From a virus, in the IMG/VR virus record IMGVR_UViG_3300027759_000395, positions 1 to 24,801 of that record: a stretch of DNA of 24,801 nt; one strand, 5' to 3'. The notes beneath the pieces are model-generated. The model saw only the letters and a program-made list of their open reading frames with translations. It was not told where the DNA came from and ran no database searches. Shown one piece after another: positions 447-24,801 of the stretch (position 1 is the stretch's first letter; every line of letters begins with the position of its first letter). A program made the translations under genes and the position numbers.

Positions 447-1415
447 TTATGCCCAGATAAATATGTCCGATGTGATTGAGTTCACCCACATGTTACCCAA
501 TCCGTTTGTTGTACTACCCCAAGTTGGAGGAGTTGCATCCGATGGATTACCAGCGTTTATTTTTGAAGTTACCATGTATTCGTCCGCAGCTACTGTTGAA
601 GAGCTAGCGTGTACATTGTATGCTACCGCAAAACGACCGAAAGCTCCGGCTGTTGCAGATTCAATAAAGAAAGCAGATCCTGATGCTCCGCCTGGTGCTG
701 TTGAACTTGCGATAATGAAACCGCCGTCTGTCAATGAAGTAGATCCAGAAGCCAATAAGATGAACTTATCAGCGATTAATACGTTTTCAGTATTTTGGAA
801 GCTAGCTGTACCAGCAACTGTTAAGTCGCCTGTTACAATTAAGTTCTGATTGAATATAGAGTTACCGGTTACATTAATACCACCAGCTGCTACTGTTACA
901 CCTGAAGTAGCGCCTGATCCAATAGTTACTAGCGTACCGTTGTCCGTAATGTTTGAGTTAGAGAATCCAGTACCATTCCACTTAGGAAGCAAGTTGTTTG
1001 TCAAAGAAGCTGCGCCTTGAATGGCAACTGTTGCAGGTAAACTACCAGAGTACGTGAAAGGAACAATACCTACGCCTTGAGTTAAACTAGGTAAAGTAGC
1101 AGATCCTGAGAAAGAACCACTAAATTGTCCAGATAATATAGCCGAACCTGTAAAAGATCCAGAGAAATCTCCGAATGCAGTAGCCGATCCTTTGAAAGAT
1201 CCCGTAGTGCTTCCTGTCATAGCTCCGTAGAAAGATCCACTAAAACTACCCGAAAGGAAAGTAGCATTAAAAGAGCTAGAGATTTGATTAATTACTGAAC
1301 CGGCCGCGTTACTTATTTGTAAAGACGCGCTAGTTACTAATTTGTTATTGACGTTAAGGTTAGCAAGTTCGGCTGATGAACCGCTAACGATGACTTTTTT
1401 CCAGGTTGCCGGCAT
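447..1415 (-). CDS. Tail-fibre-like virion protein, 322 aa, Gly-Ser-Phe repeats
   Basis: The N-terminus MPATWKKVIVSGS is shared with the fragment at 1-66. Residues 55-108 form a low-complexity run of SGSFSGSF/TGSFKGSA units that probably fold as repetitive beta structure in a trimeric fibre. The distal part contains IADKFILLASGS (about 215-225) followed by a DGGFIIASS segment, a pattern I know from fibre-like proteins of marine and flavobacterial phages. The protein ends in VNSITSDIFIWA. There are no enzyme motifs. The start is supported by a 38-base spacer from the previous gene that holds an ATATTTAT motif. It follows two other fibre-like genes, so a role in the adsorption apparatus is the natural reading. 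The exact position in the virion cannot be told. Confidence 0.8.
   Translation of the reverse strand: MPATWKKVIVSGSSAELANLNVNNKLVTSASLQISNAAGSVINQISSSFNATFLSGSFSGSFYGAMTGSTTGSFKGSATAFGDFSGSFTGSAILSGQFSGSFSGSATLPSLTQGVGIVPFTYSGSLPATVAIQGAASLTNNLLPKWNGTGFSNSNITDNGTLVTIGSGATSGVTVAAGGINVTGNSIFNQNLIVTGDLTVAGTASFQNTENVLIADKFILLASGSTSLTDGGFIIASSTAPGGASGSAFFIESATAGAFGRFAVAYNVHASSSTVAADEYMVTSKINAGNPSDATPPTWGSTTNGLGNMWVNSITSDIFIWA
457..464 (-). promoter_or_regulatory. ATATTTAT motif inside the 3' end of the fibre gene
   Basis: The motif overlaps the codons for the last residues (DIFIWA) of the 322-aa gene and lies 30 bases before the ATG of the 80-aa gene. It has the same orientation as the other seven copies. 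Being within coding sequence, it could be coincidental, but its distance to the next start fits the set. Confidence 0.3.
1092..1253 (-). repeat. Degenerate GSFSGSF/TGS coding repeat in 322-aa fibre gene
   Basis: This stretch encodes residues 55-108. Short in-frame units of Ser/Thr-Gly-Ser-Phe repeat with drift, and the DNA shows recurring TTGAAAGATCC-like words on the + strand. The same unit recurs in the two neighbouring fibre genes. Confidence 0.75.
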
Positions 1416-1438
1416 GTGTTTCTGTTTTTAAACTACTT

Positions 1439-1446
1439 ATAAATAT
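1439..1446 (-). promoter_or_regulatory. ATATTTAT motif upstream of 322-aa fibre gene
   Basis: The coding strand reads CACAATATTTATAAGTAG, ending 23 bases before the ATG at 1415, in the 38-base spacer after the 335-aa gene. This copy shares the extension ATATTTATAAG with the copy at 13395-13402. Confidence 0.45.
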
Positions 1447-1453
1447 TGTGACT

Positions 1454-2461
1454 TTAGCTAAATGTAGCCTGATCTAATCCAACATAAACAGATTGACTGG
1501 TAAAGTATATACCGCCGTACTGGGCTGTTGGAACATAATTGTTTTCGAAGACTTTATTTTCTACAGTACCTTCATTGTTTATTTTGAAAACGTTCTTGCT
1601 ACCACTTGTAATTAAAAAGAAGTGTGGAACAGATCCAGTAGCGTTCACTGTTATGCTTCCGCTGTTGCTTAGACTGAATAGGGTGCTACTTGCAGAAGTT
1701 ATTGTGAATACTGTTGGGCCTACGTTAACGCTTGCAGATATGCTTCCTGTGCCTATTCTAAATAGATTCAGGTCATTGATGCTACTAGCAGAGATGTTAG
1801 TAATGCCTGCGCCGTTGCCAAAGAAAGATCCAGTGAAAGATCCTGTCAAAGATCCTAGAGAAGTATTTAGTGTGCTTCCTACGTATTGATAAACAGAGAT
1901 GTAAACGTACTGACTGTTATTAGGCATTACGGCAGAAGAGCTGAACTCTAAAACACCGGTCTTGTAATCGAAGGCATAGTTGTTAACAGAGATTTGATCA
2001 CCTGCAGCTGGTGTGCTCGCATTTGTTGAAACGAATACTTTTGCCAAATAACCGGCAGGGTTGTCTTCCGTATTTGCGTTGGACAAAGATGGAACCGAAT
2101 ACTTTGGAGATACAAAACTGCCTTGTTGACCAGCATCCAATAGCTGAGCACCGATACCAGTACTTGATCCGCTTGGAGTTGTAAAGAACCAAACCTCGTT
2201 GTTTAAGTCGGATTTGGTTAACTTCTTGCGATAGTAATACTTCATTACCTGCTTACCACCAGAGCTGTATACCGATAAATCTTGAGAGCTACCACTAAAA
2301 GGTAAACTGCTAGATGGGATCAAAGCTGCATCCGTATAAACTTCGCTAGAGTTTATGTCCAACGTAGAAGTAAACGCTTCTTGAGAATCTAAGAGCGTTT
2401 CATGAGTATACCTTCTACTTTGTAGGAACCTGGAGGATTTTTTAACGCTATCTATTGCCAT
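1454..2461 (-). CDS. Tail-fibre-like virion protein, 335 aa
   Basis: Residues 1-200 are mixed beta-rich sequence with a basic start (MAIDSVKKSSRFLQSRRYTH). Residues 202-217 carry GSLTGSFTGSFFGNG, and residues 218-260 continue as AGITNISASSINDLNLFRIG. That block is clearly related to residues 30-75 of the next gene to the right (823 aa), so the two share a module. A C-terminal segment (about 279-308) resembles the FxIxNEGxVxN trailer found in fibre repeats, and the protein ends YVGLDQATFS. There are no catalytic motifs. It starts 12 bases after the stop of the 823-aa gene without a visible ribosome site. It is probably a fibre or baseplate-associated surface protein. The N-terminal 200 residues could instead be an attachment domain. 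Confidence 0.78.
   Translation of the reverse strand: MAIDSVKKSSRFLQSRRYTHETLLDSQEAFTSTLDINSSEVYTDAALIPSSSLPFSGSSQDLSVYSSGGKQVMKYYYRKKLTKSDLNNEVWFFTTPSGSSTGIGAQLLDAGQQGSFVSPKYSVPSLSNANTEDNPAGYLAKVFVSTNASTPAAGDQISVNNYAFDYKTGVLEFSSSAVMPNNSQYVYISVYQYVGSTLNTSLGSLTGSFTGSFFGNGAGITNISASSINDLNLFRIGTGSISASVNVGPTVFTITSASSTLFSLSNSGSITVNATGSVPHFFLITSGSKNVFKINNEGTVENKVFENNYVPTAQYGGIYFTSQSVYVGLDQATFS
1811..1858 (-). repeat. GSFTG coding repeat in 335-aa gene
   Basis: Three consecutive units of about 15 bases, with AAAGATCC at their core on the + strand (1824-1856), encode GSLTGSFTGSFFGNGA. The unit is nearly identical to those at 4814-4906. Confidence 0.7.
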
Positions 2462-2473
2462 CTATATTAAATA

Positions 2474-4945
2474 TTAACTAAATGTTACTGTTATTCCCGT
2501 TATTGGAGTCGGGTCTCCGTTGTACTTAACTATAACGTATACTTCGTCGTATTGTGAGTTTAAAATCATTCCATCAGCATTTCTAATCGGTATAGTATAA
2601 GTAGTGCTTGCTAAAGATCCACCAGTATTACCATAAAGAGCTATAGCAGAACCAAATGGATTTTTACCGTCAGTATTTGCTGTAATACTTCCTGAAACTA
2701 AATTCGATAACAAGTTTGCTGGGTCGTAAAATCTAGCGGGCGTGTATATTGAACTGTTTGAAGATTCGAATAGTAATGCTACGGATATTGCTGTCGCAGT
2801 GGTTGCGTCCCAGTTAACCAAAGTTTGACCCAAATTTAAGGTCATCGAAGTCTTAGTTCCAGAAGTCGTGAACTTTCTAACGTAGTATTTGTAAGCGCTC
2901 GCAGAAGATGGATTTGGCAACCAATATCCGTAAGCGCCTCCAGGTTTTACTAAGTATCCAGGTTTTACTTGAAGATCAGTTGCGCCTAAGTTACCATAAA
3001 CAGATCCAGTGTTCCAGAAGGATCCACTAAAAGTTAAAATGCTATCGGTCAATTGTAAACGATAACTTTCACCCAAGAATGATTCAATTAAAGCGGTAGA
3101 AGTATCTGTACCTTGACCTCTACCGAAGTATGCTAAAGATCCGCTGGTTGCGTTTTGACCAAATGATCCAGTAGAGTGATAGTAGATCGTTTGAGTATCG
3201 TAAGTTGAAGCGGCTGCGTTTTTATTGGTAGCATTTGTTGTAACTGTGAAAGTAACAGGAGTTAAACCTATCTGAGCTATATTGGTATTTGTACTAGCAG
3301 CAAATGTATAAAGACCATTTAATTTAATACGGTCTGTTTCAAAAGGAATTGTTGAAGTCGCTCTAGCAGTTACGCCCGTAGAGTCATATACGGCATTTGC
3401 GGTTTGTATAGTTCCACCAGCTGTAGAAATAGTAGTAGTTCCAGAAGTTTGCGTTAATCCAGTTCCTGAAACTGTTTGATATGCTAAGTTGGTGCCGGCA
3501 AAATAAAGAGGATTAAAAGCGCCTGTAACAGAACTAGAAACGTTATAAGTAGAACCACTCAAATAAGGAGCTCCACTTAAAGATCTTGAAACTGCAGATA
3601 GAGAAGCAGAAGCTGCCGCCGCAGTAATTGTATTTGCTGGAACGTTTGTAGATATCGTAGTTAATGGAGCGTAGAATATCTCGGCGTTACTGTTAGTAGG
3701 ATTCGTGTAAGGACTCGATCCACTAGCAATTATAATAGAAGTCGATATGTGATAGTAACCAGAACCGGTATAATCTAAAGAGGCTTGATAAATAGCTGGA
3801 GAAAATACAGAAGCAAATTTACCGTCTTGATACGCAGCTGGAATTACCGCTGGATTAGAAGTATTAATTTTTGCTAAAGTAACTCCTGATGTTGTACCTG
3901 CTCCGGTTTGAGTAATTAAAGTAGCAGAAGAAGACGTGGCGGTCGTTGCTTTAGTGGCGCTATTTAAAAACTTGAAAGAGAAAGATCCAGAAACTTTGAA
4001 ATTAGTTGGAGATCCACTTAATAATGGTCCTAATCCAAATAATTGCGCATCGGCAGAGGAAGTTGCTACAGTACTTCCAGATGCTACGCTAGTGTAAGTG
4101 TATCCGTAACTTGTAGAAGTGTATATAGGCGTTATACCTGCGAATATCGTGCTTCCTGTAGTTGCGAATCCTTTTCCTTGTAGATATATTAGTGTCGCGT
4201 TACTAGTGCTTTGAGGAACGCTACCAGCAGTAACTGTGCCTGTTGTGGTGTTTTGCGCTGTTGCAGTATAAGATCCAAAAGTTCTTGTGTTTGGACTTGC
4301 GTCAGGAGCGGAAGCCGATAGCAATCCGGCCAAAAATCTAAGTATCTCTGACACGTCTGTTTGAGTTGTGAAGTTATTAAAGTAAGATCCGTTTAAACTG
4401 GTTTGCCATTGATTAGAAGTTGGATAGCCTGCGTTTATGTTGTATGCATTTATTGATTGAGAGACAATAAGCCCCGCATTCATTGTTGCGCTACCTGTTA
4501 AATTTAAAGAACCGGAAATATTAACAGAACCAGTAAAAGTTTGTTGATCGGACGTATCGTCTCCAAAAATATTAGAACCTGAACTATAAATTACAGAAGA
4601 ACTAATTGTTTGGACTACTAATCTTTGAGCGGTTATAGTTCCAGTAAATAAAGCATTAGAAGCTGTAATGTTTCCGCTTACCGACAAACTACCTGTGAAT
4701 GAAGCGCTCGTATTAACAACGAATCCATTATTTGGAGATATTGATGCCGTAAAACTACCACTTGCTATTTGAGAAAGATTCAAACCAACGATATTGCTCG
4801 CAGAAATGTTAGTCAATCCGCTACCGTTACCAGAGAATGACCCAGTAAAAGATCCAGTAGCTTGTCCGGTAAAGGATCCGCTAAAGGAACCTGTAAAGGA
4901 ACCCGATAATGGGAAGGATAGCTGTTTATTATAAAATTGAGCCAT
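2474..4945 (-). CDS. Large tail-fibre-like protein, 823 aa
   Basis: The ATG overlaps the stop of the gp15-like gene as TAATG, so the two are probably translationally coupled. Residues 14-41 are a GSFTGSFSG run, followed by GSGLTNISASNIVGLNLSQI (41-60), the module shared with the 335-aa protein. Residues about 80-170 continue with fibre-type FTGSLSVSGNITASNALFTG repeats. From about 195 an EILRFLAGLLSASAPDASPN segment begins, followed by a long Ser/Thr/Ala-rich beta region with few charged residues. The C-terminal 200 residues (LVKPGGAYGYWLPNP onward, ending GITVTFS) look more globular and are a candidate receptor-binding head. No enzymatic site is visible. Length, composition and position right after the neck and tail-terminator genes support a long tail-fibre or baseplate surface protein. 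Confidence 0.8.
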   Translation of the reverse strand: MAQFYNKQLSFPLSGSFTGSFSGSFTGQATGSFTGSFSGNGSGLTNISASNIVGLNLSQIASGSFTASISPNNGFVVNTSASFTGSLSVSGNITASNALFTGTITAQRLVVQTISSSVIYSSGSNIFGDDTSDQQTFTGSVNISGSLNLTGSATMNAGLIVSQSINAYNINAGYPTSNQWQTSLNGSYFNNFTTQTDVSEILRFLAGLLSASAPDASPNTRTFGSYTATAQNTTTGTVTAGSVPQSTSNATLIYLQGKGFATTGSTIFAGITPIYTSTSYGYTYTSVASGSTVATSSADAQLFGLGPLLSGSPTNFKVSGSFSFKFLNSATKATTATSSSATLITQTGAGTTSGVTLAKINTSNPAVIPAAYQDGKFASVFSPAIYQASLDYTGSGYYHISTSIIIASGSSPYTNPTNSNAEIFYAPLTTISTNVPANTITAAAASASLSAVSRSLSGAPYLSGSTYNVSSSVTGAFNPLYFAGTNLAYQTVSGTGLTQTSGTTTISTAGGTIQTANAVYDSTGVTARATSTIPFETDRIKLNGLYTFAASTNTNIAQIGLTPVTFTVTTNATNKNAAASTYDTQTIYYHSTGSFGQNATSGSLAYFGRGQGTDTSTALIESFLGESYRLQLTDSILTFSGSFWNTGSVYGNLGATDLQVKPGYLVKPGGAYGYWLPNPSSASAYKYYVRKFTTSGTKTSMTLNLGQTLVNWDATTATAISVALLFESSNSSIYTPARFYDPANLLSNLVSGSITANTDGKNPFGSAIALYGNTGGSLASTTYTIPIRNADGMILNSQYDEVYVIVKYNGDPTPITGITVTFS
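4814..4906 (-). repeat. GSFTGSFSG coding repeat at the 823-aa fibre N-terminus
   Basis: About six in-frame units of Gly-Ser-Phe-Ser/Thr-Gly encode residues 14-44. On the + strand the recurring word is (G/T)TAAA(G/A)GATCC with drift to GGAACC. Such near-identical units are a plausible substrate for recombination with the two other fibre genes. Confidence 0.75.
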
Positions 4946-8668: not shown

Positions 8669-10342
8669 TTAAACTACTTGTAAATCTGATACTACTACTA
8701 AACCGTAGAATTCCGGACGGATCATAGTCATCGCGTAACGAGTCATGATACCTTTACGTGGAGTAAATGTATTTGGATCGTACACTAATGGAGTCATGAT
8801 CAATGGAACATATGGAGAGTATACAGCACCTGCTTCTAAGAACTGAGTACCACGGAATCCTAATAAGATTACGTTTTCAGTCATATAAGGGTTTTTGTAC
8901 ACTTTGTAGCGGCTGTTTAAAGCACCTACTTTCTGAACACCGAATGCATATTTCATTGTATCTGCTGCACCGTCAGTATCAGCTGCAAATCCTGGGATTG
9001 ATTCCAAGATTGTAGCTACTGCTGGAGAAACTACCATGAAGTTAGCGCCGCCACGTAAAGTACGTTGGTGGATGATGTTAGAAACTTTTTGTAACTTGAT
9101 ACCAATAGTTTGGAACCAAGTCATTTGGTTGTAATACAAACCACTTGTATTAGAAGTGAACGCAGTTTTAGCAGCGTTGATTTGATCACCAACCTTAGCT
9201 GACCAATACTCTACTATTGGAGCGTTTTGGATTAACATATCTAAGATTTCTAAGTCGATCTCTAAAGAGATGTACTCAGATAATAAACCTGTTAATTCAG
9301 CTTCAGCATCTAAAGAATGATAAGCATTCAAATCTTGTGCGAATTCTGGAGTCCATTGTGCCTTTAACTTTTTAGTCTTAGCGCTGATAGTTTGAGACTT
9401 CATTTGAACGTTGATCTCAGGGATAACGATTGAAGTAGCTGAAGCAGCGTTAGGAACAGAGAAGCCTTGAGTAGCAGTTCTGTCTTCAAAATCACCTCTT
9501 GTAGCGAAATCAGTTGCTTTGTTATAGTTTACTGTCCAAGTTTGAGCAGATCCAGAAAGCACTGTAGAAGAACCAGTTACAAAGAAAGAAATGTTTCCAC
9601 CGTCAATAACTGTAAATTGTTGTAAAGTCTTATCAGAAGCTACAACTGAACCAGAGAAAGTTGTGAACGCACGAATACCATCGATATCGAAATTAGCTAA
9701 AGAAGAAGTAGCGAAGCTAATTTTCTTAATTTCTTGAGCAGCTAAAGAAGCTGTGTAATCGCTATTGAAATCTATTTCTTTAGAAGACGCCGTTGCGAAA
9801 GCACCAGCAGTTGCACTAACCGCTACACCAGCAATTGAAGCTGAGAATTGGTTAGTAGAATATCCAAAACGACCAGCGCCATATAAAGCACCTGCAGCAG
9901 CGTTACCGAAGTTAGCTGTGTTTGTACCGTATAAAGAATCACCAGCAGTGAAAGGAGTTTTAGTATTTCCGTATTGGAAATCTAAATAGAATACTAATCC
10001 AGCAGGTAAGTTCATTGGTTGAACAGAAACGAACTCTTTTGCAGCGATTTGACCGAAGATCTTACGAACTAAAGGTAAAGCTACACCAGCCCATTGTTCA
10101 CCAGTACCAGCTGTGAAAGTTGCGCCGTTTGTGATACCGCCGCCTGTTTGAGAAGACTCAGTTACTAATTGCTTAGCCTGGTTTTCTAGGATCATAGCCA
10201 TAGTAGCTTGGTCGTTTCCTTCCAAACCTTCTAAAAGGCCAGATTTTGCCCACTTCTTAGAAAGCTTCTGAGCTACAGTATACTGAGCTTGTTGAGCGTT
10301 CTGAGCGGACTCATTTAATAATGATTGTACTAAGTTTGCCAT
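8669..10342 (-). CDS. 23: Major capsid protein (gp23-like)
   Basis: The protein is 557 aa, near the 521 of T4 gp23. The N-terminal propeptide region KKWAKSGLLEGLEGNDQ (29-45) and ILENQAKQL (51-59) parallels T4 NKWKPLLEGEG and IFENQEKDF. A protease site is likely at LVTE-SS (E62/S63), equivalent to the T4 cleavage after Glu65, leaving a mature protein of about 495 aa. Residues 87-115 (VALPLVRKIFGQIAAKEFVS) and the C-terminal part (NPYMTENVILLGFRGT, then PYVPLIMTPLVYDPNTFTPR) are family hallmarks. It assembles the icosahedral shell around the gp22 core and is matured by gp21. It lies directly after the scaffold gene and before a strong terminator. ATAACAA directly precedes its ATG, exactly as in the scaffold gene. 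Confidence 0.95.
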   Translation of the reverse strand: MANLVQSLLNESAQNAQQAQYTVAQKLSKKWAKSGLLEGLEGNDQATMAMILENQAKQLVTESSQTGGGITNGATFTAGTGEQWAGVALPLVRKIFGQIAAKEFVSVQPMNLPAGLVFYLDFQYGNTKTPFTAGDSLYGTNTANFGNAAAGALYGAGRFGYSTNQFSASIAGVAVSATAGAFATASSKEIDFNSDYTASLAAQEIKKISFATSSLANFDIDGIRAFTTFSGSVVASDKTLQQFTVIDGGNISFFVTGSSTVLSGSAQTWTVNYNKATDFATRGDFEDRTATQGFSVPNAASATSIVIPEINVQMKSQTISAKTKKLKAQWTPEFAQDLNAYHSLDAEAELTGLLSEYISLEIDLEILDMLIQNAPIVEYWSAKVGDQINAAKTAFTSNTSGLYYNQMTWFQTIGIKLQKVSNIIHQRTLRGGANFMVVSPAVATILESIPGFAADTDGAADTMKYAFGVQKVGALNSRYKVYKNPYMTENVILLGFRGTQFLEAGAVYSPYVPLIMTPLVYDPNTFTPRKGIMTRYAMTMIRPEFYGLVVVSDLQVV

Positions 10343-10361: not shown

Positions 10362-11501
10362 TTATTTTTTGTTAATACCAGCTAATACTTGCATTCTAGA
10401 GATAAAAGGATCTGATTCGATCGTTTGTGTCTGCTTAGGTGCGATACCAGCTGCTTGAGAAGCAAAACCTTCGTTTATTGATTTCTTTTTAGAAACAGCG
10501 AAAGACTCGTTTAAAGTAGCAAATGTGTTTTTAACTTCTTTAACTGTAGTAGCTCTATCGAAAGCGTTGATAGCTTTGATCTTTTGAGATTCAGTTAATG
10601 ATTTAGCTTTAAACAATTTGTTCATGAATAAGTACTTAGCATTTAATAAGTTAACTTCTTTCAATTGAGTTTGTAAATAAGAGATTGTTTGATTTGCTTC
10701 TTTCAATTGTTTTTCAGTTCCAGGAACTTCCAATTGTTTTTGCTCTTCCATCTCGTCTTTATCAGCTTTCATTTTTTCTTTCTTTTCTTCAACTTTTTCT
10801 TTTGAAGCCTCTTCTAATTCAGCAAAAATTTCGTCTAAGTTAATGTCGTCGGTTGCTTCTTCGCCTTCAGCGCCTTCTGTACCTTCTTCTTCACCTTGAT
10901 ACGGAGCTAAAATGTCTTTTAATTGACCTAAAGTGATAGTGATTACTTTTTCTTCTTCACCTTCAACTTCTTCGCCGTCCATTTCTTCTTCTCCGTCCAT
11001 TTCAACTTCTTCTTCGCCGTCTTCTTCAGACTTTGCTTCGTAGTTCATGTCTTCTTCGCCTTCTTCCATTTCTTCTTCTGTGCCCTCTTCCATTTCGCCG
11101 TCGTGGTTTTCACCTTCGTTAGCTAATGCTTCAAGTTCACCTAAGATTTCTTCTAAAGACGTTTCGTCCATTTCGTCAGCTTCATCCATTTCTTCAGCTT
11201 CGTCCATTTCCTCAGCCTCATCGATTTCTTCGGCTTCGTCCATTTCTTCAGCTTCATCCATTTCGTCAGCTTCGTCAAGTTCTTCAGCATCTTTTTTGTG
11301 CTTCTTTTCCTCGACTTTATGTTTCGCTTCGTCCATTTCTTCAGCTTCGTCCATTTCGTCAGCAGCTTCTTCAACGGTTTTGCGGAACATTTCTTTTAAT
11401 TTAGGTTCAAATGCTTCTTCTAAAGCAGCTTTGGCGTTAGCCATGGCGCTAGCTCTTAGTGCTTTTGCGTCTGCAATTGCCTCTTTGTACAAATTTTCCA
11501 T
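10362..11501 (-). CDS. 22: Prohead core scaffolding protein (gp22-like)
   Basis: This very acidic 379-aa protein lies between protease and capsid genes, the T4 position of gp22. Residues 1-45 are helical with Ala and Lys. Residues 48-59 and 73-114 are tandem EEMDEA hexapeptides. Residues 115-230 are Glu-rich, with ITITLGQLKDILAPYQG (188-203). Residues 232-300 are probably coiled coil (KQLKEANQTISYLQTQL). The C-terminus ends PFISRMQVLAGINKK, a pattern typical of gp22 proteins (compare the conserved SRMDRLAGI-type ending). The scaffold forms the core on which gp23 assembles and is then degraded by gp21. LNE-S (330-333) and SINE-G (341-345) fit the I/L-x-E protease consensus. It is longer than T4 gp22 (269 aa), mainly because of the acidic repeats. 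Confidence 0.88.
   Translation of the reverse strand: MENLYKEAIADAKALRASAMANAKAALEEAFEPKLKEMFRKTVEEAADEMDEAEEMDEAKHKVEEKKHKKDAEELDEADEMDEAEEMDEAEEIDEAEEMDEAEEMDEADEMDETSLEEILGELEALANEGENHDGEMEEGTEEEMEEGEEDMNYEAKSEEDGEEEVEMDGEEEMDGEEVEGEEEKVITITLGQLKDILAPYQGEEEGTEGAEGEEATDDINLDEIFAELEEASKEKVEEKKEKMKADKDEMEEQKQLEVPGTEKQLKEANQTISYLQTQLKEVNLLNAKYLFMNKLFKAKSLTESQKIKAINAFDRATTVKEVKNTFATLNESFAVSKKKSINEGFASQAAGIAPKQTQTIESDPFISRMQVLAGINKK
11160..11285 (-). repeat. 18-bp tandem repeat in scaffold gene (EEMDEA x7)
   Basis: Seven consecutive 18-base units encode EELDEA, DEMDEA, EEMDEA, EEIDEA, EEMDEA, EEMDEA and DEMDET. The DNA units differ mainly at third positions (TTCGTCCATTTCTTCAGC and variants on the + strand). 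Two further units (DEMDEA, EEMDEA) occur at 11325-11360, separated by a basic insert HKVEEKKHKKDA. Copy number is likely to vary among relatives. Confidence 0.92.
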
Positions 11502-11636: not shown

Positions 11637-12284
11637 TTATCTAGTTAAACAGCAAACTCCGCTCTGAGAACAGATCAGGTCTGAAATAAGACGGCTTGCT
11701 CTTTCGTACGTATTTGCATTAGCAATCTGTAAATCGATTGATTCTCTAAGACCTGGTGTGCTTGGGTTGGCAACCGGCTTCATATAAGCTCCGTAAGTTG
11801 ATGGGGTAGATACAAAGTCCCAACAAATAAGATCCAAGTCGTCTTCTACTTGAACCAAACCTTCGCCGATAGGAATAACCGATCCTAAAGCTCTTGATGA
11901 AATACCGACTGTAATGTTATTCGCAAAAAGTTGGGTAAGGATATTTCCTGATGGTGTAGGTAGGATTTCTATTTGACCGTAAAGATCTTTGTCTTGCCAC
12001 CAAAGTTTAACGATGTTGTGGCTAACGTTCTTTAAATTGATAATGGTAGATTCTGGATGGTCCAATTCTCCTAAAGCTCTATTTTCTCTGATAGGTCCGT
12101 TGATGTATTTTTCTACTTGCGTAAATAGTACTTCGTAGGGGTATATTCTTTTGTTGGCATTTGGCTTATCGCATGCTTGCACTTGTCCGCTAACTATTAG
12201 GTTACCGTTTGTGTGTCTTCTACTCTCGTTCAATGAAACTGTAGGAGTAAAGTAAGCAGTCTCTATAAGTAATTGTTTTGCCAT
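11637..12284 (-). CDS. 21: Prohead maturation protease (gp21-like, peptidase S80 type)
   Basis: This 215-aa protein is close to the length of T4 gp21 (212). The catalytic His is in GELDHPE (H76), and the nucleophile Ser is in VGISSRALG (S129 or S130). These two blocks, with the acidic segment VEDDLDLICWDFVSTPS (146-162) between them and the C-terminus, are diagnostic of T4-type prohead proteases. The earlier block NANKRIYPYEVL (43-54) is also family-typical. The enzyme sits in the prohead core and trims scaffold, capsid and internal proteins after an I/L-x-E motif, then destroys itself. Its ATG overlaps the previous stop as TAATG, and the scaffold gene follows after 135 bases. All key residues look intact. 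Confidence 0.93.
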   Translation of the reverse strand: MAKQLLIETAYFTPTVSLNESRRHTNGNLIVSGQVQACDKPNANKRIYPYEVLFTQVEKYINGPIRENRALGELDHPESTIINLKNVSHNIVKLWWQDKDLYGQIEILPTPSGNILTQLFANNITVGISSRALGSVIPIGEGLVQVEDDLDLICWDFVSTPSTYGAYMKPVANPSTPGLRESIDLQIANANTYERASRLISDLICSQSGVCCLTR

Positions 12285-13390
12285 TACGCTGCGGTTGTTG
12301 AGGTTGCTGTTTTAATTCCCTTTTGTTTGTACATTTGAGCTTTTTGTTTGCCTTTTCCAGCTGGCACTAAGTCTAAAGTAATATCTTCTCCGGCTGCATT
12401 TTTACCTTTTACGATATCCATGGCCTCGCCTACGTCTGTCTTTTTGTCCTTCTTTAAAAACTTTCTTAACTTCTCAACGATTCCCATAGTTTTCTTTTGA
12501 CGATCGGCGTCTATCTTAGACGGGAAATCTACGACTCCCGCGAATGTTTTTTCTCCTCTTTCTTCCCAATCTGACCACGCTTTGTCTCTTGACGCTTTAT
12601 CGTCAGATTGAGATTTTACGTTTGCCAGCTCTTTGGCCTTGTCGATTACGTTAACTTGTCTATTGATAATTAAAGGCTCTTCTCCTTCTCTTTGTATTTC
12701 TAATTCTAAAGTACCACCAAAAATATCTTTTACAATACCGGTTTTACTTTTATATTGTTTAGCGTCTTCTTCAGGCAATGGAACCTCTTGGCCCATACCG
12801 TAAGTAGGATGCATATCCTCAGTTAATTCAACTTTTTTTTTAGAAAGAAGATCTTTTAAGATATCCAATTGAGAAGACTCTTTCATCATCTTAACTCCTT
12901 TTGGATTACCTCTCTTATTCTCTTTCTTAGAAGCTTTTGTGTTTGACTTAGCATCGTGAAAGCCTTTAACTTTCTTCATGCCATTATGCTTATCTACAAA
13001 ATTTTCGCCTTTAACTGGAGTCATACCTAATTTAGCGTCAGCTTTTTCTATCTTAGCCGAGTTAGAGATATGTAAATCGTCGTAAGCAGTTGGATCTTTT
13101 GCTAATTTCTTTGTAGCCGTTGCAACAGCTTTAGCGTAAGCAAGGTTGGTAATTTCTCCGCCCTTTAACAATTCGGCTTCAGTGCCTCTTTTTAAAGTGT
13201 AAGGATGTATATTGTCTTGAGCACTCGCTTCTTTAACGATACTCTTGTTTTTAAGGATCTTGATAGAGTCTTCGTAAGAGGTCATATTAGTGATAAAAGG
13301 TAACTGTTGGTCCCTTCTAACTTCGTACAAGAATTTCTCCTTGCTGATTTCTCCTGCTCTGTGCTTTTTGAATAGTATTGCTGTTGTCAT
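12284..13390 (-). CDS. Unknown protein, 368 aa, candidate prohead-core component
   Basis: I do not recognise the family. The N-terminus (MTTAILFKKHRAGEISKEKF) reads as a short helical domain. Residues 60-170 are Lys-rich and polar, including HPYTLKRGTEAELLKGG. Residues 175-182 read LDILKDLL, followed by ELTED, echoing the leader peptides of the putative internal head proteins. Residues 193-250 (MHPTYGMGQEV, then SKTGIVKDIFGGTLELEIQR) look like a small SH3/KOW-like beta barrel. The basic C-terminus ends TSTTAA. IVKE-AS (51-55) and LTE-D (189-192) fit the prohead protease pattern. It ends as TAATG into the protease gene, and this tight coupling in the slot before gp21 suggests a role in head assembly. 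Confidence 0.75.
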   Translation of the reverse strand: MTTAILFKKHRAGEISKEKFLYEVRRDQQLPFITNMTSYEDSIKILKNKSIVKEASAQDNIHPYTLKRGTEAELLKGGEITNLAYAKAVATATKKLAKDPTAYDDLHISNSAKIEKADAKLGMTPVKGENFVDKHNGMKKVKGFHDAKSNTKASKKENKRGNPKGVKMMKESSQLDILKDLLSKKKVELTEDMHPTYGMGQEVPLPEEDAKQYKSKTGIVKDIFGGTLELEIQREGEEPLIINRQVNVIDKAKELANVKSQSDDKASRDKAWSDWEERGEKTFAGVVDFPSKIDADRQKKTMGIVEKLRKFLKKDKKTDVGEAMDIVKGKNAAGEDITLDLVPAGKGKQKAQMYKQKGIKTATSTTAA

Positions 13391-13540: not shown

Positions 13541-13789
13541 TTACTTTTGTCTTAAGTATTTTATAATATAGTCAATTACTCCTCCATTTGGAGCGCAATT
13601 CCAATTATCAATTATAATTTCCATGCCTTCAGCTACTTTTGCTGAATCTTTTGGACTTATTCGCTGTATATGATCGTACACGGATTCGAATCCATTAACT
13701 TTCAATAGTTTTTTAAGTTTAACATCTGAAATAGCAATGTCTTCTTTTGTTATACCTGACAACTCTTGCAATCTTTTAACTTCGTCCAT
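13541..13789 (-). CDS. Small unknown protein, 82 aa
   Basis: This acidic-to-neutral helical protein begins MDEVKRLQELSGITKEDIAI. The pattern LQxLSGIT is common at the N-termini of short phage proteins. The middle (KLKKLLKVNGFESVYDHIQR) and the Trp-containing NWNCAPNGGVIDYIIKYL end look like a compact domain, and Cys is single so no metal site is suggested. It lies one base after the 313-aa gene and one base before the 45-aa gene, so all three probably share one message and coupled translation. The position between portal and protease matches that of T4 gp67/gp68, small prohead-core proteins, but I see no sequence resemblance to them. Confidence 0.75.
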   Translation of the reverse strand: MDEVKRLQELSGITKEDIAISDVKLKKLLKVNGFESVYDHIQRISPKDSAKVAEGMEIIIDNWNCAPNGGVIDYIIKYLRQK

Positions 13790-20161: not shown

Positions 20162-22180
20162 TTATTTAGTTAAAGAGAAACCTAATTTGCTACTTGTTGG
20201 ATTTAGTGTGCTCAAGCTTGGAATATCAAATTTGAAACTGGCGTTTGGATCGTTGAATGATCTAACATCAAAGCCCATGCTACCATCACCCTTTAAATCA
20301 AAAGTCAAGTACATTTGTTTAACTCCAGTTTTTGAAATCATTTCCTTTAACGCTTGCACAAATTTAGGTTTTGTATTCATTTGATCGGCTACATAATAAG
20401 ATAATGGAGAAGTTATAGCTCCGTAATATCCATTGTCACCAGTTTTTTTCTTCATTGTATCCCATTCAACTCCTCCAGCTTTTCCTGGATTTCTTTTCAT
20501 TTCTGCGAAGAGCTTACCAAACTTTTTAAAGAATACGTCGTTTTTTTGTTTGGCCGTTTTTGCGTTTGTTTTTGCAAAAAGCTTCTTAATATAGTCGTTG
20601 ATGTCTTGTGATGTTAAACTCTTTGGATCAACTCCTATGATATTACCTAATGTTTGAATAGCCGGCATATCTTTTGGAAAGGCAGAAGCTACACGTATGA
20701 AAGCATTCGGACTTGTCTCACTCATCATAGGCAACAATGCTTTGTATAGAGCATATTGATCTTTGTCGCCTTTAATTTGATCTGGTTTAATTGCTTTCAA
20801 CAAATCAGTTAAAGAAGCTGTCGCGCCTTTCTCGTATTTAGAAGATATTTTGTATCCATCAATGTAGAAGTCAACTAATGGTTCGTTTCCTTTAGGGAAG
20901 TTAAGTGATTTTTTAATTCCAACCATTTTACCCAAGAATATTCCTCCAAGAACTTCTCCAAAGTCTTTACCTATTGTATTTTTGTCTTCTTTAGAAATGC
21001 CGCCTAATGCTTGCGTAGTTTGTTTTGAAAGTGGTACATTTGTTTTACCGCTTCTTAATTTAGATAGACCTGATTTTGAAGTAGGCGTATTATTCGCTGT
21101 ATCTGTAACCAATCCTGTCAATATTTTTCCTAAGTTTTTATCTTTTTGAACCGCTCTTGTAGTTGCTTGTACTAGACTGTTTAAATCTTTATAATCTCCA
21201 GCGATTCCTAATTTAACAGGAGTTAAAGCTTTGAAAGTAACTGTTTTATTTTCTTGACCAGTTTGATTTACTATTAAAACAAAATCTCCTTTTTTGAAAT
21301 TTTGTGTAGGTTTCGTTACTGTTACTTTGATAGTTGGGTAACTTCCAGAAGCTGAATCTTTAGATCCCATCTTTACATCAGCCATAGTATAGTTGCCTTT
21401 ACCCAATACTTTATCTGCTGCTTTAGTAATGCTTTTAGCTGGATCGGTGCCTAATTGATATCTTATGTGCGCAGGCTTTTTAGTGCCTTTATCTCCAGGC
21501 AAATTTAATCTTTTCATTTCTGAATTGAAAGCCGATCTTAAGTCAGGAATTGCCGCTTCTTTAATTAAAGCTTTTAGTATGATTGATTCTGTTAGTGGTT
21601 CATTGTCTGAGTCCTCTTCTTCTGCAGCTGGTGTGGTTTCAACTCCAGTCTGATCTCCGCCTCCGTTATTATTTCCACCGCTTAAACTGCCATCGTCTTC
21701 TCCGTCTGGTCTTGTTCCCTCTTCAGCTCCTTCAGGTCCTTTTGTTTTTAATGGACTGCCTTGTTGTAGCAATCGACTAATGCCTTTCATTGCTCTTTCC
21801 TTTTCACCGATAGAAGACAAATAGTGTCTTTTACCTGCTATAATAGCTTCGTATATGCCATCACCCATATAACTTAAATAGAAGTATTGAGTGTTATGTA
21901 AAACAATTTTAAAAGTAGTAGGCTTAGGTGACTGAATGAATATAGCAGTAATGTATTCCTTAAAATCAGGAGTCATTAATTCACTCAATAACTCGTTTAA
22001 TGTGTGATACTTCTTTAGAATAAAACCCATTGGGTCCTTATCAAAAGAAGAGTCGGGTTTGTCGTTTTTTTCGCTAGCTCTGTTGTCAGCTTTTTCTTCC
22101 GCGTCGTTTTTCTCTATTTCCTTCTCGTCGCCTTCGGCTTCTAAAAGAATTGCTTTTAATATGTCTAAGTCTTTATTCAT
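20162..22180 (-). CDS. Large unknown protein, 672 aa, candidate internal head protein
   Basis: The protein begins MNKDLDILKAILLEAEGDEK, an amphipathic leader with a perfect gp21-like site L-L-E/A at 12-15. An acidic linker (16-50) follows, then a folded domain (51-140, including FKIVLHNTQYFYLSYMGDGI). A Gly/Asn/Asp-rich linker (141-195) leads to a second leader-like segment, PLTESIILKALIKEAA (195-210), again with two L/I-x-E sites. The rest, about 460 residues, holds a beta-rich part (YPTIKVTVTKPTQNF) and a Lys-rich helical part ending LNPTSSKLGFSLTK. I do not recognise the fold. The duplicated leader suggests a pro-protein cut into at least two pieces in the prohead, perhaps packaged and ejected with DNA. 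It starts as TAATG overlapping the endolysin stop. Confidence 0.75.
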   Translation of the reverse strand: MNKDLDILKAILLEAEGDEKEIEKNDAEEKADNRASEKNDKPDSSFDKDPMGFILKKYHTLNELLSELMTPDFKEYITAIFIQSPKPTTFKIVLHNTQYFYLSYMGDGIYEAIIAGKRHYLSSIGEKERAMKGISRLLQQGSPLKTKGPEGAEEGTRPDGEDDGSLSGGNNNGGGDQTGVETTPAAEEEDSDNEPLTESIILKALIKEAAIPDLRSAFNSEMKRLNLPGDKGTKKPAHIRYQLGTDPAKSITKAADKVLGKGNYTMADVKMGSKDSASGSYPTIKVTVTKPTQNFKKGDFVLIVNQTGQENKTVTFKALTPVKLGIAGDYKDLNSLVQATTRAVQKDKNLGKILTGLVTDTANNTPTSKSGLSKLRSGKTNVPLSKQTTQALGGISKEDKNTIGKDFGEVLGGIFLGKMVGIKKSLNFPKGNEPLVDFYIDGYKISSKYEKGATASLTDLLKAIKPDQIKGDKDQYALYKALLPMMSETSPNAFIRVASAFPKDMPAIQTLGNIIGVDPKSLTSQDINDYIKKLFAKTNAKTAKQKNDVFFKKFGKLFAEMKRNPGKAGGVEWDTMKKKTGDNGYYGAITSPLSYYVADQMNTKPKFVQALKEMISKTGVKQMYLTFDLKGDGSMGFDVRSFNDPNASFKFDIPSLSTLNPTSSKLGFSLTK

Positions 22181-22779
22181 TATGATAACAATGCGTGATA
22201 TTCTTTGAAATGTTTGATTCTGTCAGGTAATCCGATAGTTCCACCGTTTACTCTTTTTGTGATTGAAGTAACTACTGCATCAGTAGCACCACCATCAGCC
22301 ATTATGTGCAATTTGTTCTTATTAAAAAACCAAGCTGCAGATAATAAAGCATATTTGTCAGCAACCAATGTTGGGTTAGTTGCAATGTCTTCGTTGATTG
22401 ATTTTCCAAATGCTGTGTAGTTGTCTTTACCGGTTAATTGGATGTAACCGCGACCACAATATTTAGCGCCATCTCCAGTTGACTCTGCGCCGTTACCCAT
22501 TCTACCTCCATAAACTTTATTAGCAATTTTCTCAGGTTTTCTTTCATAAGGCAAAGCTGATTCTAATGTTGGAAAGTACTTCTTAAAAATGCCATTCAAA
22601 CCTTTGGCAGAATAGTTTAAGTTTTCTTTTGTCAATCTAAATCCACCAGATTCATGACCGCATTGAGCTAGAAAATGAGCCAATCTCAATGGAGTGTTGA
22701 TTTGGAATTTCTCCATTACTCCAGGAATCTGTTCAATTACTTTATCTGGTATATGACCTTTTAATTTATCTAGATTCAT
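22180..22779 (-). CDS. GH19-type endolysin (chitinase-like muramidase)
   Basis: This 199-aa single-domain enzyme is of the glycoside hydrolase 19 family as used by phages to cut peptidoglycan. The general acid is E43 in CGHESGGF (40-47). The second Glu is probably E52 in KENLNYS (51-57). The hallmark GRGYIQLTGKDNY lies at 109-121, preceded by the GGRMGN motif (91-96). There is no signal peptide or wall-binding domain, so release to the wall would need a holin or equivalent, which I do not see. It is tightly packed between the zinc-ribbon gene and the 672-aa gene, inside a virion-gene operon, so a virion-associated lysin role is possible too. ATTATAAGCATG at its start resembles the junction at 13390. 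Confidence 0.9.
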   Translation of the reverse strand: MNLDKLKGHIPDKVIEQIPGVMEKFQINTPLRLAHFLAQCGHESGGFRLTKENLNYSAKGLNGIFKKYFPTLESALPYERKPEKIANKVYGGRMGNGAESTGDGAKYCGRGYIQLTGKDNYTAFGKSINEDIATNPTLVADKYALLSAAWFFNKNKLHIMADGGATDAVVTSITKRVNGGTIGLPDRIKHFKEYHALLS

Positions 22780-22787
22780 GCTTATAA

Positions 22788-23549
22788 TTATTTCTTTTTA
22801 GCTTCCAAATTACCGCTTGCCATCTGCATTGGTCCTTGAGCGCCTCTAAAAGGTCCAGTCGCTTGACCATTTTTAGTATAACCAAATTTATCTGTACCTT
22901 TTGCTTCGTATACTTCTTGATCAGGCGTTTCGTTTCCTTCTCCAGCTTCGTATTCGTAATATCCGTCGTTTGCTTGACTAATATAATTGTCAGCGTTTGT
23001 AATATGGTCTTGAACCCAAGCTGGAATATCAATCTCTTCGTCACCCATTTTATTCATTAATGCGCTTGCGTTGCTTACTATATTTTGTAGACTGGCTTTT
23101 GCCATTGAAACTTCGTGATCCATTCCTTCTGAATATCCGTCTTTGTCGTCCTTAACTGGGCCACCAATAAGAGCGGCTTCCAAAGAAGTAGCATCTCCAT
23201 CTTCTTCCATATATCCGCACTCTGCGCACATTTTATCTTCGTACATCATAGCGGCTCCACACTCTTTACATATATTATTTCTAGAATCCATTGCTGTCAT
23301 CTCAGATCTTGATAATGATGGCATTGTTTCCATTGGTCGTTCTTCGTTACCAAATCTGATTCCTTCTTTCTTAGGTGCTTGCGTTTTGAATTCAGTTTTC
23401 ATGCTTTTTTCAATAGCGTCGCCTCTTTTCTTTTCATAAGAAGAGATTTCATCGTCTTTATCTAAGTCAGCTAAGTTTGGCTTCTTTAATCCTGAATTTT
23501 TGTAAGAGATTTCGGCTACTGCTTCTTTAAGTAAGTCTTTAAGTTTCAT
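22788..23549 (-). CDS. Zinc-ribbon protein with capsid-targeting-like leader, 253 aa
   Basis: A TTG at 23567 would extend the frame, but the ATG at 23549 gives MKLKDLLKEAVAE, matching the leader of the neighbouring gene (MIKLKDILLEMG), so I use it. The site L-K-E/A at 7-10 fits the prohead protease. A zinc ribbon is formed by C94-x2-C97 and C108-x2-C111 (ICKECGAAMMYEDKMCAECG). Residues 143-200 (MDHEVSMAKASLQNIVSNAS, later IPAWVQDHITNADNYISQAN) form a helical domain I remember as recurring in virion-associated proteins of marine T4-like phages. The C-terminus is basic. It starts 14 bases after the upstream stop. The function is unknown; a head-internal, possibly DNA-binding protein is an inference. 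Confidence 0.8.
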   Translation of the reverse strand: MKLKDLLKEAVAEISYKNSGLKKPNLADLDKDDEISSYEKKRGDAIEKSMKTEFKTQAPKKEGIRFGNEERPMETMPSLSRSEMTAMDSRNNICKECGAAMMYEDKMCAECGYMEEDGDATSLEAALIGGPVKDDKDGYSEGMDHEVSMAKASLQNIVSNASALMNKMGDEEIDIPAWVQDHITNADNYISQANDGYYEYEAGEGNETPDQEVYEAKGTDKFGYTKNGQATGPFRGAQGPMQMASGNLEAKKK

Positions 23550-23563
23550 TATTTGGTATTTTA

Positions 23564-24577
23564 TCAATTTATTTTAACAGTTGCTGTGCATTCGTACCTA
23601 CCGTCTGCTAGCTTGTACATTTTTGTATCTACTATTGAAGTGCTTATTGAGCCTTCTGGTTTTCCTAATTTAGTTGCTAACGCTGCTCGAGCTTTAGTTG
23701 TTGCAACACTTCTTGCCGTATTTTCGTTTGGATGTGCATACGTAGCAGTCGCTGTTTGAGCAGTATCTTGTTGTTGAGATTGAGAAACCGGAGCTTGATT
23801 TTGTGCTTGAGCCACATTTGGAGAACCTGCTAATCCTGCGGCTAACGCTGCTGTTCCTAGCATTTTCTTTAGACTAAGTTCTTCTAGATTACTTTTTTTC
23901 TTTTTAGATTTGCTTGCTTTTTTCCATAAGCCTTTGTCTGCTTTTCTTGCTCCGCCTTTTCCAGTTACAAAAGAATTAACTCTTGCCATTGCCCACTGAT
24001 GCTGTCCAACTCCAGGTCTGTGCCCAGTTTTCCAAGCGGCCAAACCTTTATCGTATACGCCCCTTAAAACTGTTTTTGATATGCCGGTTGCTTTCGCTTT
24101 ATTTGATAGCGCTTTATCTGCGTCGCCTTCGTTAATGCTTTCGTTCTTTCCAAATCTTTTTTCGTAAGCTGAAGTGGCTGCCGATTTTTTAGTTGCGTAT
24201 GGTTTCTTTTTGTCTTTGTCTGCGTAATCTGCGTCCCATTTAGTGTACGCAGAAGGATCATCGTTGCTTAATTTTGCAACTCTATCGATCTCGCCTTTCA
24301 TTGCAGACTTATTCTTAGTAAGATAGGCTTTATTTACCTTTCTTCCAGCTTTAGTTCTTTCTGCTTCTTCTATTTCAACTCCAAGTTCATCTCTAAATTG
24401 AGAGAATTCATTATAATCGAAGCCTTTTAATTCATTTTCTACTTCCGCTTTAGACTTTGTTTTTTTACCTGGAAATAAAGCATTAGAAACTCTTTCGGGA
24501 TTCTGATCGTATAAATCCAAAATAGGCTTGATTGTAATCGAACCCATTTCTAATAGTATGTCTTTTAGTTTTATCAT
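23564..24577 (-). CDS. Composite unknown protein with leader, RPG/QW domain and secreted-type C-terminus, 337 aa
   Basis: The frame is open further upstream, but those codons overlap the end of another conserved gene. The ATG at 24577 gives MIKLKDILLEMG, parallel to the next gene, so it is the likely start. L-L-E (8-10) resembles a prohead protease site, and SINE-G (147-151) is another. Residues 160-222 (TGISKTVLRGVYDKGLAAWK, then HRPGVGQHQWAMARVNSF) are a domain common in uncharacterised phage proteins (DUF5824-like, from memory). Residues 238-258 (MLGTAALAAGLAGSPNVAQA) look like a signal peptide with an A-x-A end but lie inside the protein. Residues 280-337 resemble an LPP20-type periplasmic domain (ARSVATTKARAALATKLG and LADGRYECTATVKI). 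It may be a fusion or a cleaved precursor. Confidence 0.78.
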   Translation of the reverse strand: MIKLKDILLEMGSITIKPILDLYDQNPERVSNALFPGKKTKSKAEVENELKGFDYNEFSQFRDELGVEIEEAERTKAGRKVNKAYLTKNKSAMKGEIDRVAKLSNDDPSAYTKWDADYADKDKKKPYATKKSAATSAYEKRFGKNESINEGDADKALSNKAKATGISKTVLRGVYDKGLAAWKTGHRPGVGQHQWAMARVNSFVTGKGGARKADKGLWKKASKSKKKKSNLEELSLKKMLGTAALAAGLAGSPNVAQAQNQAPVSQSQQQDTAQTATATYAHPNENTARSVATTKARAALATKLGKPEGSISTSIVDTKMYKLADGRYECTATVKIN

Positions 24578-24578
24578 A

Positions 24579-24801
24579 TTACCATGCTTTACAAGACCAA
24601 TAATTTGCTTTCCATCTTGGCCCAGGGTTTTTACATCCATGTCTTGCTCTGTAAGATTTTCTATGTTTAGGCAAATGCTTTTTAATTGCAACTCCTTTTT
24701 GACCGAAATTTACTTTAACTATGTTTCCTTTTGCATTCTTAACGTATACTGATCTCTTTTTAGGACCATCAGGAGTTAAAAATGGTTTACCTAAAGTTAC
24801 T
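24579..24801 (-). CDS. C-terminal part of a conserved virion-associated protein (runs off window)
   Basis: Reading from 24800, an open frame of 73 codons ends at TAA 24581-24579, two bases before the next ATG. It contains GPKKRSVYVKNAKGNIVKVN, then NFGQKG, the RARHGC segment and a C-terminal NPGPRWKANYWSCKAW. I recognise this pattern from memory as a conserved domain at the ends of virion-associated proteins of T4-like marine phages (VYVKxxKGNxxKVxFGD, RxxFxARHxC, KAxYWSC). It holds two Cys that could pair or bind metal. Its function is unknown. The upstream part is outside the window. It is easily missed because the alternative frame of the following gene overlaps it. Confidence 0.8.
   Translation of the reverse strand, partial: VTLGKPFLTPDGPKKRSVYVKNAKGNIVKVNFGQKGVAIKKHLPKHRKSYRARHGCKNPGPRWKANYWSCKAW

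Follow-up and report, generated by a model that had tools for sequence, protein, structure and literature searches.

Candidate capsid-targeting leaders and a putatively twice-cut protein with exchangeable C-terminal modules in a T4-like phage fragment

The subject of this analysis is a set of short N-terminal leaders carried by unrelated proteins of a T4-like phage, of which a 24.8-kb fragment, IMG/VR record IMGVR_UViG_3300027759_000395, positions 1 to 24,801, is examined here (the window, that is, the whole stretch at its full length). All relevant genes lie on the minus strand and include those for P0001 (a DUF5824 protein), P0002, a GH19 endolysin, P0003, the terminase, the portal protein, a gp21-like protease, an acidic scaffold-like protein, a gp23-like capsid protein and tail proteins, along with several genes without assignment; judged by the capsid protein, the closest cultured phage is Flavobacterium phage immuto (54% identity). 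A preliminary description of this DNA had singled out P0001, P0002 and P0003 as neighbours sharing an amphipathic leader that ends in L-x-E, and had pointed to a gp21-like protease in the same fragment; the three open reading frames (ORFs) with the quoted N-termini and the protease gene are indeed there, and the P0001 family occupies the equivalent position in 16 of 17 related records. The leader-bearing genes, the endolysin gene that stands among them and the leaders are the following.

23564..24577, minus strand: P0001, 337 amino acids (aa), leader and DUF5824 domain at residues 97-213 (PF19141, E 2e-18)
22788..23549, minus strand: P0002, 253 aa, leader and a weak zinc-ribbon-like CxxC...CxxC stretch (sub-threshold Pfam zinc-ribbon matches only)
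22180..22779, minus strand: GH19 endolysin between P0002 and P0003 (phrog_181, E 1e-68)
20162..22180, minus strand: P0003, 672 aa, two-leader chassis with an exchangeable C-terminal module of alpha type (ORF and alignment of relatives)
24548..24577, minus strand: type A leader of P0001, MIKLKDILLE, predicted cut after E10 (sequence; register L4, I7, L8, E10)
23523..23549, minus strand: type A leader of P0002, MKLKDLLKE, predicted cut after E9 (sequence; register L3, L6, L7, E9)
22139..22180, minus strand: type A leader of P0003, MNKDLDILKAILLE, predicted cut after E14 (sequence; register L8, I11, L12, E14)

In T4, the ten residues MKTYQEFIAE of internal protein (IP) III are enough for packaging, the capsid-targeting sequence (CTS) is about 10-19 residues long, residues 4 and 7 serve targeting and residues 8 and 10 processing, and gp21 cleaves after [L/I]-x-E (PMC9026906). 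Counted backwards from the cut, the four T4 positions are P7, P4, P3 and P1, and in P0001, P0002 and P0003 they are occupied by Leu at P7, by Ile, Leu and Ile, respectively, at P4, by Leu at P3 and by Glu at P1; the leaders, of 10, 9 and 14 residues, are of T4-type length, end in L-L-E, L-K-E and L-L-E, and are directly followed by MG, AV and AE. In the AlphaFold2 (AF2) model of P0003, the leader has a predicted local distance difference test score (pLDDT) under 50, with a helix drawn at residues 3-14. The endolysin, an in-locus negative control, has no leader, hence the leader is not a general feature of the locus. For comparison, genes were called, with starts from our own caller, in 80 terminase relatives (contigs that are fragments, many of them nearly identical), in the 174-kb relative G001 (the record of L042) and in immuto; families are blastp clusters of bodies without the first residues, and true families may be split or merged. 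Across the relatives, the mean identity of the P0001 leader is 0.71 against 0.38 in the next 30 residues, and that of the P0003 leader 0.60 against 0.39 in the sequence after it. Relatives retain the P0003 leader even where the acidic linker that follows it differs in length and sequence, and some relatives of P0001 are without the 60 residues after the leader, which in them is retained and abuts the DUF5824 domain directly.

The window also encodes the protease of gp21 type along with the other principal head proteins.

11637..12284, minus strand: gp21-like prohead protease (PF03420, E 4e-25; phrog_207, E 6e-46)
10362..11501, minus strand: gp22-like scaffold (position, and a family that includes immuto and Mel-JY01 genes at the equivalent place)
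10310..10342, minus strand: N-terminus of the gp23-like capsid protein, MANLVQSLLNE-SA (leader A register)

The N-terminus of the protease, MAKQLLIE-T, resembles that of T4 gp21, MNEPQLLIE-T; the scaffold gave no family match of its own in the profile comparison. The gene adjoining that of the protease (368 aa, window 12284-13390) encodes internal leader-like stretches, SIVKE-AS and SQLDILKDLLSKK; its product could be a core protein with multiple cleavages, in the manner of T4 gp67 and gp68.

An informative comparison is offered by the beta family, proteins of about 350 residues that stand alone in marine Kyanoviridae-like phages and carry leaders of several unrelated types, 10-44 residues in length, among them MQSFKDYLIE, MREYLKQLRFREDFLPAEDRVQNLLSE, MTIKSFTDWDNEGPSLTE and one of 44 residues. 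All 40 distinct beta leaders (40/40) have Leu or Ile at P3 and Glu at P1 directly before the body, with Ala, Gly, Gln or Ser at P1'; the P1 Glu was by definition the last one ahead of the body, which leaves P3 and P1' as the independent observations. The AF2 model of a beta protein shows disorder over the 11 residues of the leader and an ordered body beginning at residue 12. Furthermore, the neighbouring THLEHLEDE protein and cytidyltransferase families have a leader in some phages and start at the body in others, as seen on comparing Melnitz, HTVC008M and C48C1 with Synechococcus phages, and the orthologs meet at the body boundary. The fixed cut site, the variable leaders and the leaderless orthologs together indicate that the leader is a separable add-on.

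P0003 displays a more elaborate architecture, in which a leader-like sequence recurs inside the protein.

21761..22048, minus strand: P0003 module 1, residues 45-140 (in all chassis variants; 27 invariant alignment columns; ordered in AF2)
21557..21601, minus strand: P0003 internal leader EPLTESIILKALIKE-AA, residues 194-208, predicted second cut after E208 (coincides with the module-exchange breakpoint)
20165..21556, minus strand: P0003 module 2, alpha type, residues 209-672 (swapped in relatives; well ordered in AF2)

The alignment of relatives reveals a constant order of leader, acidic linker, module 1 (~100 residues), Gly/Glu-rich linker, internal leader (consensus E-P-L-T-E-S/A-x-I-L-K-x-L/I-L/I-x-E-A) and then unrelated C-terminal modules of at least five types; in the AF2 model, a low-confidence, disordered linker (142-211) holds the internal leader, and the ordered body starts right behind it. 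The exchange is seen in two relatives (L016 and L018) that are near-identical through the internal leader and unrelated beyond it. A scan with module 1 yielded 116 long fusions, whose C-terminal parts form six blastp clusters (alpha, epsilon/zeta, beta, delta and two gamma-like). Standalone homologs of the modules are found in Kyanoviridae at one place, between gp41/mazG and the cytidyltransferase gene, which is occupied by beta in Melnitz and HTVC008M, alpha in C48C1, delta in six Synechococcus phages and a gamma-like module in S-SSM7; this locus (L357-L363, L108-L110) appears to hold alternative, mostly unrelated nuclease-like modules, with or without a leader. Elsewhere (L267:916-4269, L269:1063-4407), the alpha module forms the C-terminus of a protein of 1.1 thousand residues, the N-terminal part of which looks like a nucleotidyltransferase or ligase (EQMDGSRF).

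Could the leaders be permanent docking helices, for the head or for another phage or host complex, with L-x-E merely marking the end of the helix? The leader residues fit an amphipathic helix, the helix drawn at residues 3-14 of P0003 is compatible with this possibility, and in T4 targeting, which persists with Asp at position 10, can be uncoupled from processing. However, the P1 Glu and the P3 Leu or Ile of the beta proteins stay fixed while the length and sequence of the leader change completely, and the internal copy lies at the junction of a swapped module, where there is no reason for a docking helix to be. We consider this alternative unlikely, albeit the strongest of those weighed here.

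Leader A is shared by many non-homologous families of the phage group: in addition to the P0002 and P0003 families, it is found on DUF5824 proteins, an NT5C nucleotidase (immuto gp087), a zeta-toxin-like kinase and other families, among them some without known domains, such as the small CWKGY family, the KADRCLRIARR family and the FAxTRxxGA family. In blastp clustering, the leader thus sits on unrelated bodies, as a CTS would. Two of the carriers in G001 are encoded far from the cluster (115666-116094 and 168364-168690). In immuto, gp076, gp077, gp087 and gp092 bear leaders, as do two type B proteins. The kinase, encoded in a relative (L101:5131-5913; zeta-toxin/CPT-like, PF06414, E 3e-10), has the leader MIKLLDLLLE; it is possibly an injected toxin-like enzyme or an anti-defence factor.

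Two further types of leader recur in the same manner, one of them in the window.

13742..13789, minus strand: type B leader MDEVKRLQELSGITKE of an 82-aa protein, gene 13789..13541 (sequence; statistics of the type B motif)
10365..10400, minus strand: scaffold C-terminus SRMQVLAGINKK (conserved in the family up to the last residues)

Type B, KRMQxLAGIIxE, is found on several unrelated families; the window copy (MDEVKRLQELSGITKE-DI) is divergent, with SGI for AGI. Its core, R-M-Q-x-L-A-G-I, also forms the very C-terminal end of the scaffold-like protein, both in the window (SRMQVLAGINKK) and in relatives, with SRWQKLAGIIK in immuto and ERMKKLAGIVK in Mel-JY01. Over all proteins examined, the type B motif was counted 18 times at C-termini, those of scaffolds, and 13 times at N-termini, with no internal occurrence; in immuto, no N-termini match the scaffold tail better than those of the two type B proteins, which outscore all 1260 internal segments. 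On these comparisons, type B leaders look like copies of the scaffold docking peptide followed by a cleavage site. No N-terminal copy of the scaffold tail was seen in Melnitz, HTVC008M or T4, so that type B is specific to the clade. Type C, FDLKKFLVENKLTxNSxLLxE, is common to four otherwise unrelated immuto proteins; in the pairwise comparison of N-termini, type C pairs score 61-90 and unrelated immuto pairs rarely exceed 34. In the unguided pairwise comparison of all G001 N-termini, the type A leaders are too short to exceed shuffled sequences.

The sharing of leaders might, in principle, reflect common descent, the carriers being duplicates that have diverged past recognition, and several of them, including P0001-P0003, do stand side by side; nevertheless, the bodies are unrelated by blastp clustering and include domains as distinct as DUF5824, NT5C, the zeta-toxin-like kinase and a restriction-endonuclease fold, and a single body family has different types of leader in different phages, such that we give this scenario very little weight.

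The statistics of the leader depend on how the motif is defined. The preliminary description took L-x-E as the signal, and the bare motif hardly bears this out: [LI]-x-E in the first 18 residues is found in 86 of 300 families, compared to 67 in the next window and ~60 in shuffles, and so is uninformative on its own. The full T4 register (hydrophobic P7, P4 and P3 and Glu at P1, ending within residues 8-20) performs far better, with 32 of 318 own-clade families matching at the N-terminus against 0-7 per equal-length internal window and 6.2 +/- 2.4 in shuffled sequences (maximum 13 in 200). The narrower pattern L..[IL][LI].E is found at the N-terminus in 16 of 318 own-clade families and 0-2 times per equal internal window. 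Applied to T4, the register test picks out 8 of 212 proteins, including the known gp21 substrates IPII, IPIII and gp24. That the leaders are a chance product of short, hydrophobic N-termini ending in Glu, which would be common in small phage proteins rich in Glu and Leu, is hardly credible, the frequency of bare L-x-E and five T4 matches that are no known IP or head substrates notwithstanding, given that the full register is enriched relative to internal windows and shuffled sequences, that the leaders are conserved in relatives and that types B and C are independent.

What would the modules carried behind the leaders do? A nuclease is well supported for beta, likely for alpha and no more than a guess for the rest. 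The beta module, found in relatives only and not in the window, gave an AF2 model (mean pLDDT 81, over 90 across most of the body) with the fold of type II restriction endonucleases: the matches are HinP1I (Z 11.0 over 201 residues), MspI (Z 10.0 over 206 residues; Foldseek E 9e-4, probability 1.00) and HhaI (Z 7.1), with no other match above Z 5. The invariant residues D104, S113, K115 and E128 form the pattern D-x8-S-x-K-x12-E, with a spacing that differs from what we take to be that of HinP1I and MspI. In the alpha module of the window, the corresponding candidate is this:

20837..20872, minus strand: candidate nuclease motif of alpha, D437-F-Y-I-D-G-Y-K-I-S446-S-K448 (invariant residues and helix-strand order)

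E409, D437, S446 and K448 are invariant in 33 sequences, down to 24% identity, giving the acidic residue and the D...(D/E/S)-x-K of PD-(D/E)XK-like nucleases, and the motif region in the AF2 model follows a helix-strand-strand-strand-helix order. A profile search of the sequences of solved structures found no match for alpha or beta; in the alpha-beta profile comparison, the best segment pairs both D...SxK motifs and is not significant. Similar D...SxK motifs were found by regular expression, which is weak evidence, in delta and one gamma-like module. Two other structural assignments of P0003, nucleotidyltransferase-like for residues 211-310 (Z about 6) and frataxin-like for module 1 (Z 6.2), are at the weak level expected without relatives and were rejected. 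A general cognate restriction-modification pair was likewise discarded: a C5 methylase is encoded in Melnitz, with none in 17 other IMG/VR contigs carrying alpha or beta, in HTVC008M or in immuto. Avoidance of the palindromes GATC, CGCG and TCGA is strong in Melnitz-2 and HTVC008M (L109, L353-L354; L355-L356, L108); in HTVC008M, GATC occurs 23 times against 480 expected, CGCG 0 against 59 and TCGA 2 against 100. As a trace of a packaged restriction enzyme this avoidance was set aside: T4 also avoids GATC and G001 shows little avoidance, so that host restriction explains it equally.

Taken together, these findings lead us to conclude, with a probability of roughly 0.8, that the three leaders are T4-like capsid-targeting propeptides, with processing and packaging of the proteins that bear them, and that P0003 is cut twice and carries exchangeable nuclease-like cargo. 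The sequence of events that we infer is as follows. During head assembly, the short amphipathic leader would dock the protein to the prohead core or the inner shell; the gp21-like protease would then cut after [L/I]-x-E, and the mature protein would stay in the head with the DNA and probably be ejected with it into the host. P0003 would be cut after E14 and again after E208, releasing the C-terminal module as a separate polypeptide, an exchangeable and most likely nuclease-like cargo that is swapped among relatives exactly at the internal cut. If the modules are active nucleases, the DNA of the phage itself would have to be spared by modification, by missing sites or by inactivity of the enzyme until ejection.

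The proposal in the preliminary description that the leaders are capsid-targeting propeptides cut after L-x-E is well supported by the comparison, namely by the T4 register, the sharing among non-homologous proteins, the same site behind unrelated leaders of orthologs, the gain and loss of leaders and the mimicry of the scaffold C-terminus; the mature N-termini that it predicted (residues 11, 10 and 15) fit the register. Its set of three holds but was an undercount, given the internal copy in P0003, the 82-aa type B gene and the many families in relatives, and its suggestion of host-takeover or DNA-binding factors has been sharpened for the 672-aa protein only, as an exchangeable nuclease-like C-terminal domain. 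In the alignment of leaders across relatives, a check that it proposed, conservation was seen for P0001 and P0003 and hardly for P0002, in which the leader is scarcely better conserved than its surroundings (0.53 vs 0.47). The latter finding is among several that weigh against our conclusion. In the whole genome of HTVC008M, the register motif is not enriched (5 of 140 vs 2-4 per internal window). The delta module proteins of cyanophages have no leader, so for some cargo families the leader is not always needed for function. The structure search with the 672-residue P0003 model gave no clear match for the alpha module, for which a nuclease is suggested as likely by the motif and the order of secondary structure elements. 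Finally, no published virion proteomics for immuto or Melnitz was found in the open-licence literature.

The closest parallel is the CTS of the T4 internal proteins (IPI, IPII, IPIII and Alt), with which the present system shares an N-terminal leader (10 residues in T4), hydrophobic positions 4, 7 and 8, Glu at 10, a gp21-type protease of its own and unrelated bodies; moreover, in T4 the lysozyme gene e is flanked by ip genes, much like the endolysin gene between those of P0002 and P0003 here. The differences are that the putative targeting leaders here are of leucine rather than aromatic type, that carriers are far more numerous, that there are two additional types (B and C), and that no chassis bearing two leaders, an internal cut and exchangeable cargo was found reported for T4 in the open-licence literature. 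The body families of IPI-III and Alt are absent from our Pfam and PHROGs matches, no direct profile comparison having been made. The T4 vertex protein gp24 begins with MAKINELLRE-STTT, in the leader A register, with the cut placed where we presume it to be; it is a gp21 substrate and a shell protein, unlike the cargo here. In phiKZ and SPN3US, many inner-body or ejection proteins are cut C-terminal to Glu by the gp21-like protease gp175/gp245 (PMC9026906); the motif there is S/A-x-E, compared to [L/I]-x-E here, and the cargo showed no relation to that described here. The fold of the beta module is that of HinP1I and MspI; the module has no sequence match to solved structures, and no C5 methylase partner was found in the 17 contigs, HTVC008M or immuto. 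Polymorphic toxins and effectors likewise combine a constant N-terminal delivery part, a processing site and an exchangeable C-terminal enzymatic part, except that the delivery part here is a phage-head leader.

The CTS is thus already known, and has long been suspected to be a general packaging route for diverse proteins in T4-like phages (PMC9026906). Not found described in the open-licence literature are the leucine-type leader on many families of a clade, the copies of the scaffold tail, the internal leader at the point of module exchange and the restriction-endonuclease-like cargo. A wider scenario, which we put forward tentatively and hold to be possible rather than probable, is that at least two T4-like lineages possess a polymorphic, head-delivered nuclease system, along with leaders that copy the C-terminal docking peptide of the scaffold for packaging. 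Restriction-endonuclease-like and other PD-(D/E)XK-like modules would be swapped behind leaders, in the window's group within the twice-cut chassis, freed by the prohead protease and injected to attack host, plasmid or competitor DNA early in infection. If so, the artificial loading of EcoRI and staphylococcal nuclease into T4 heads would have a natural equivalent in the exchange of nuclease-like modules at an internal protease site, and the question would arise of how the phage spares its own packaged DNA. More generally, the packaged proteins of other lineages are mostly unknown because environmental phages come without virion proteomics; the grammar outlined here (hydrophobic P7, P4 and P3, Glu at P1 and an ordered body behind, or else a copy of the scaffold tail) would allow packaged proteins to be recognised in sequence data and singles out particular uncharacterised proteins as candidates for injection. 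Overall, the data suggest a modular system that carries enzymes into the host with the viral DNA.

Several further features of the window deserve mention. A gene truncated by the window edge (24580-24801) has family members that bear leader A in a relative (L007, MIKLGDILTE) and, in C48C1, a leader of aromatic type (MKKFKQYIDE). P0001 ends in a 110-residue extension (LKKMLGTAALAAGLAGSPNVAQAQ... onwards; window 23564-23900) that only some relatives possess (337 vs 227 aa) and that resembles a signal or membrane segment at its start. Tail-fibre-like proteins with many repeats of the GSFSGSFTG type are encoded downstream of the head genes (window 447-4945).

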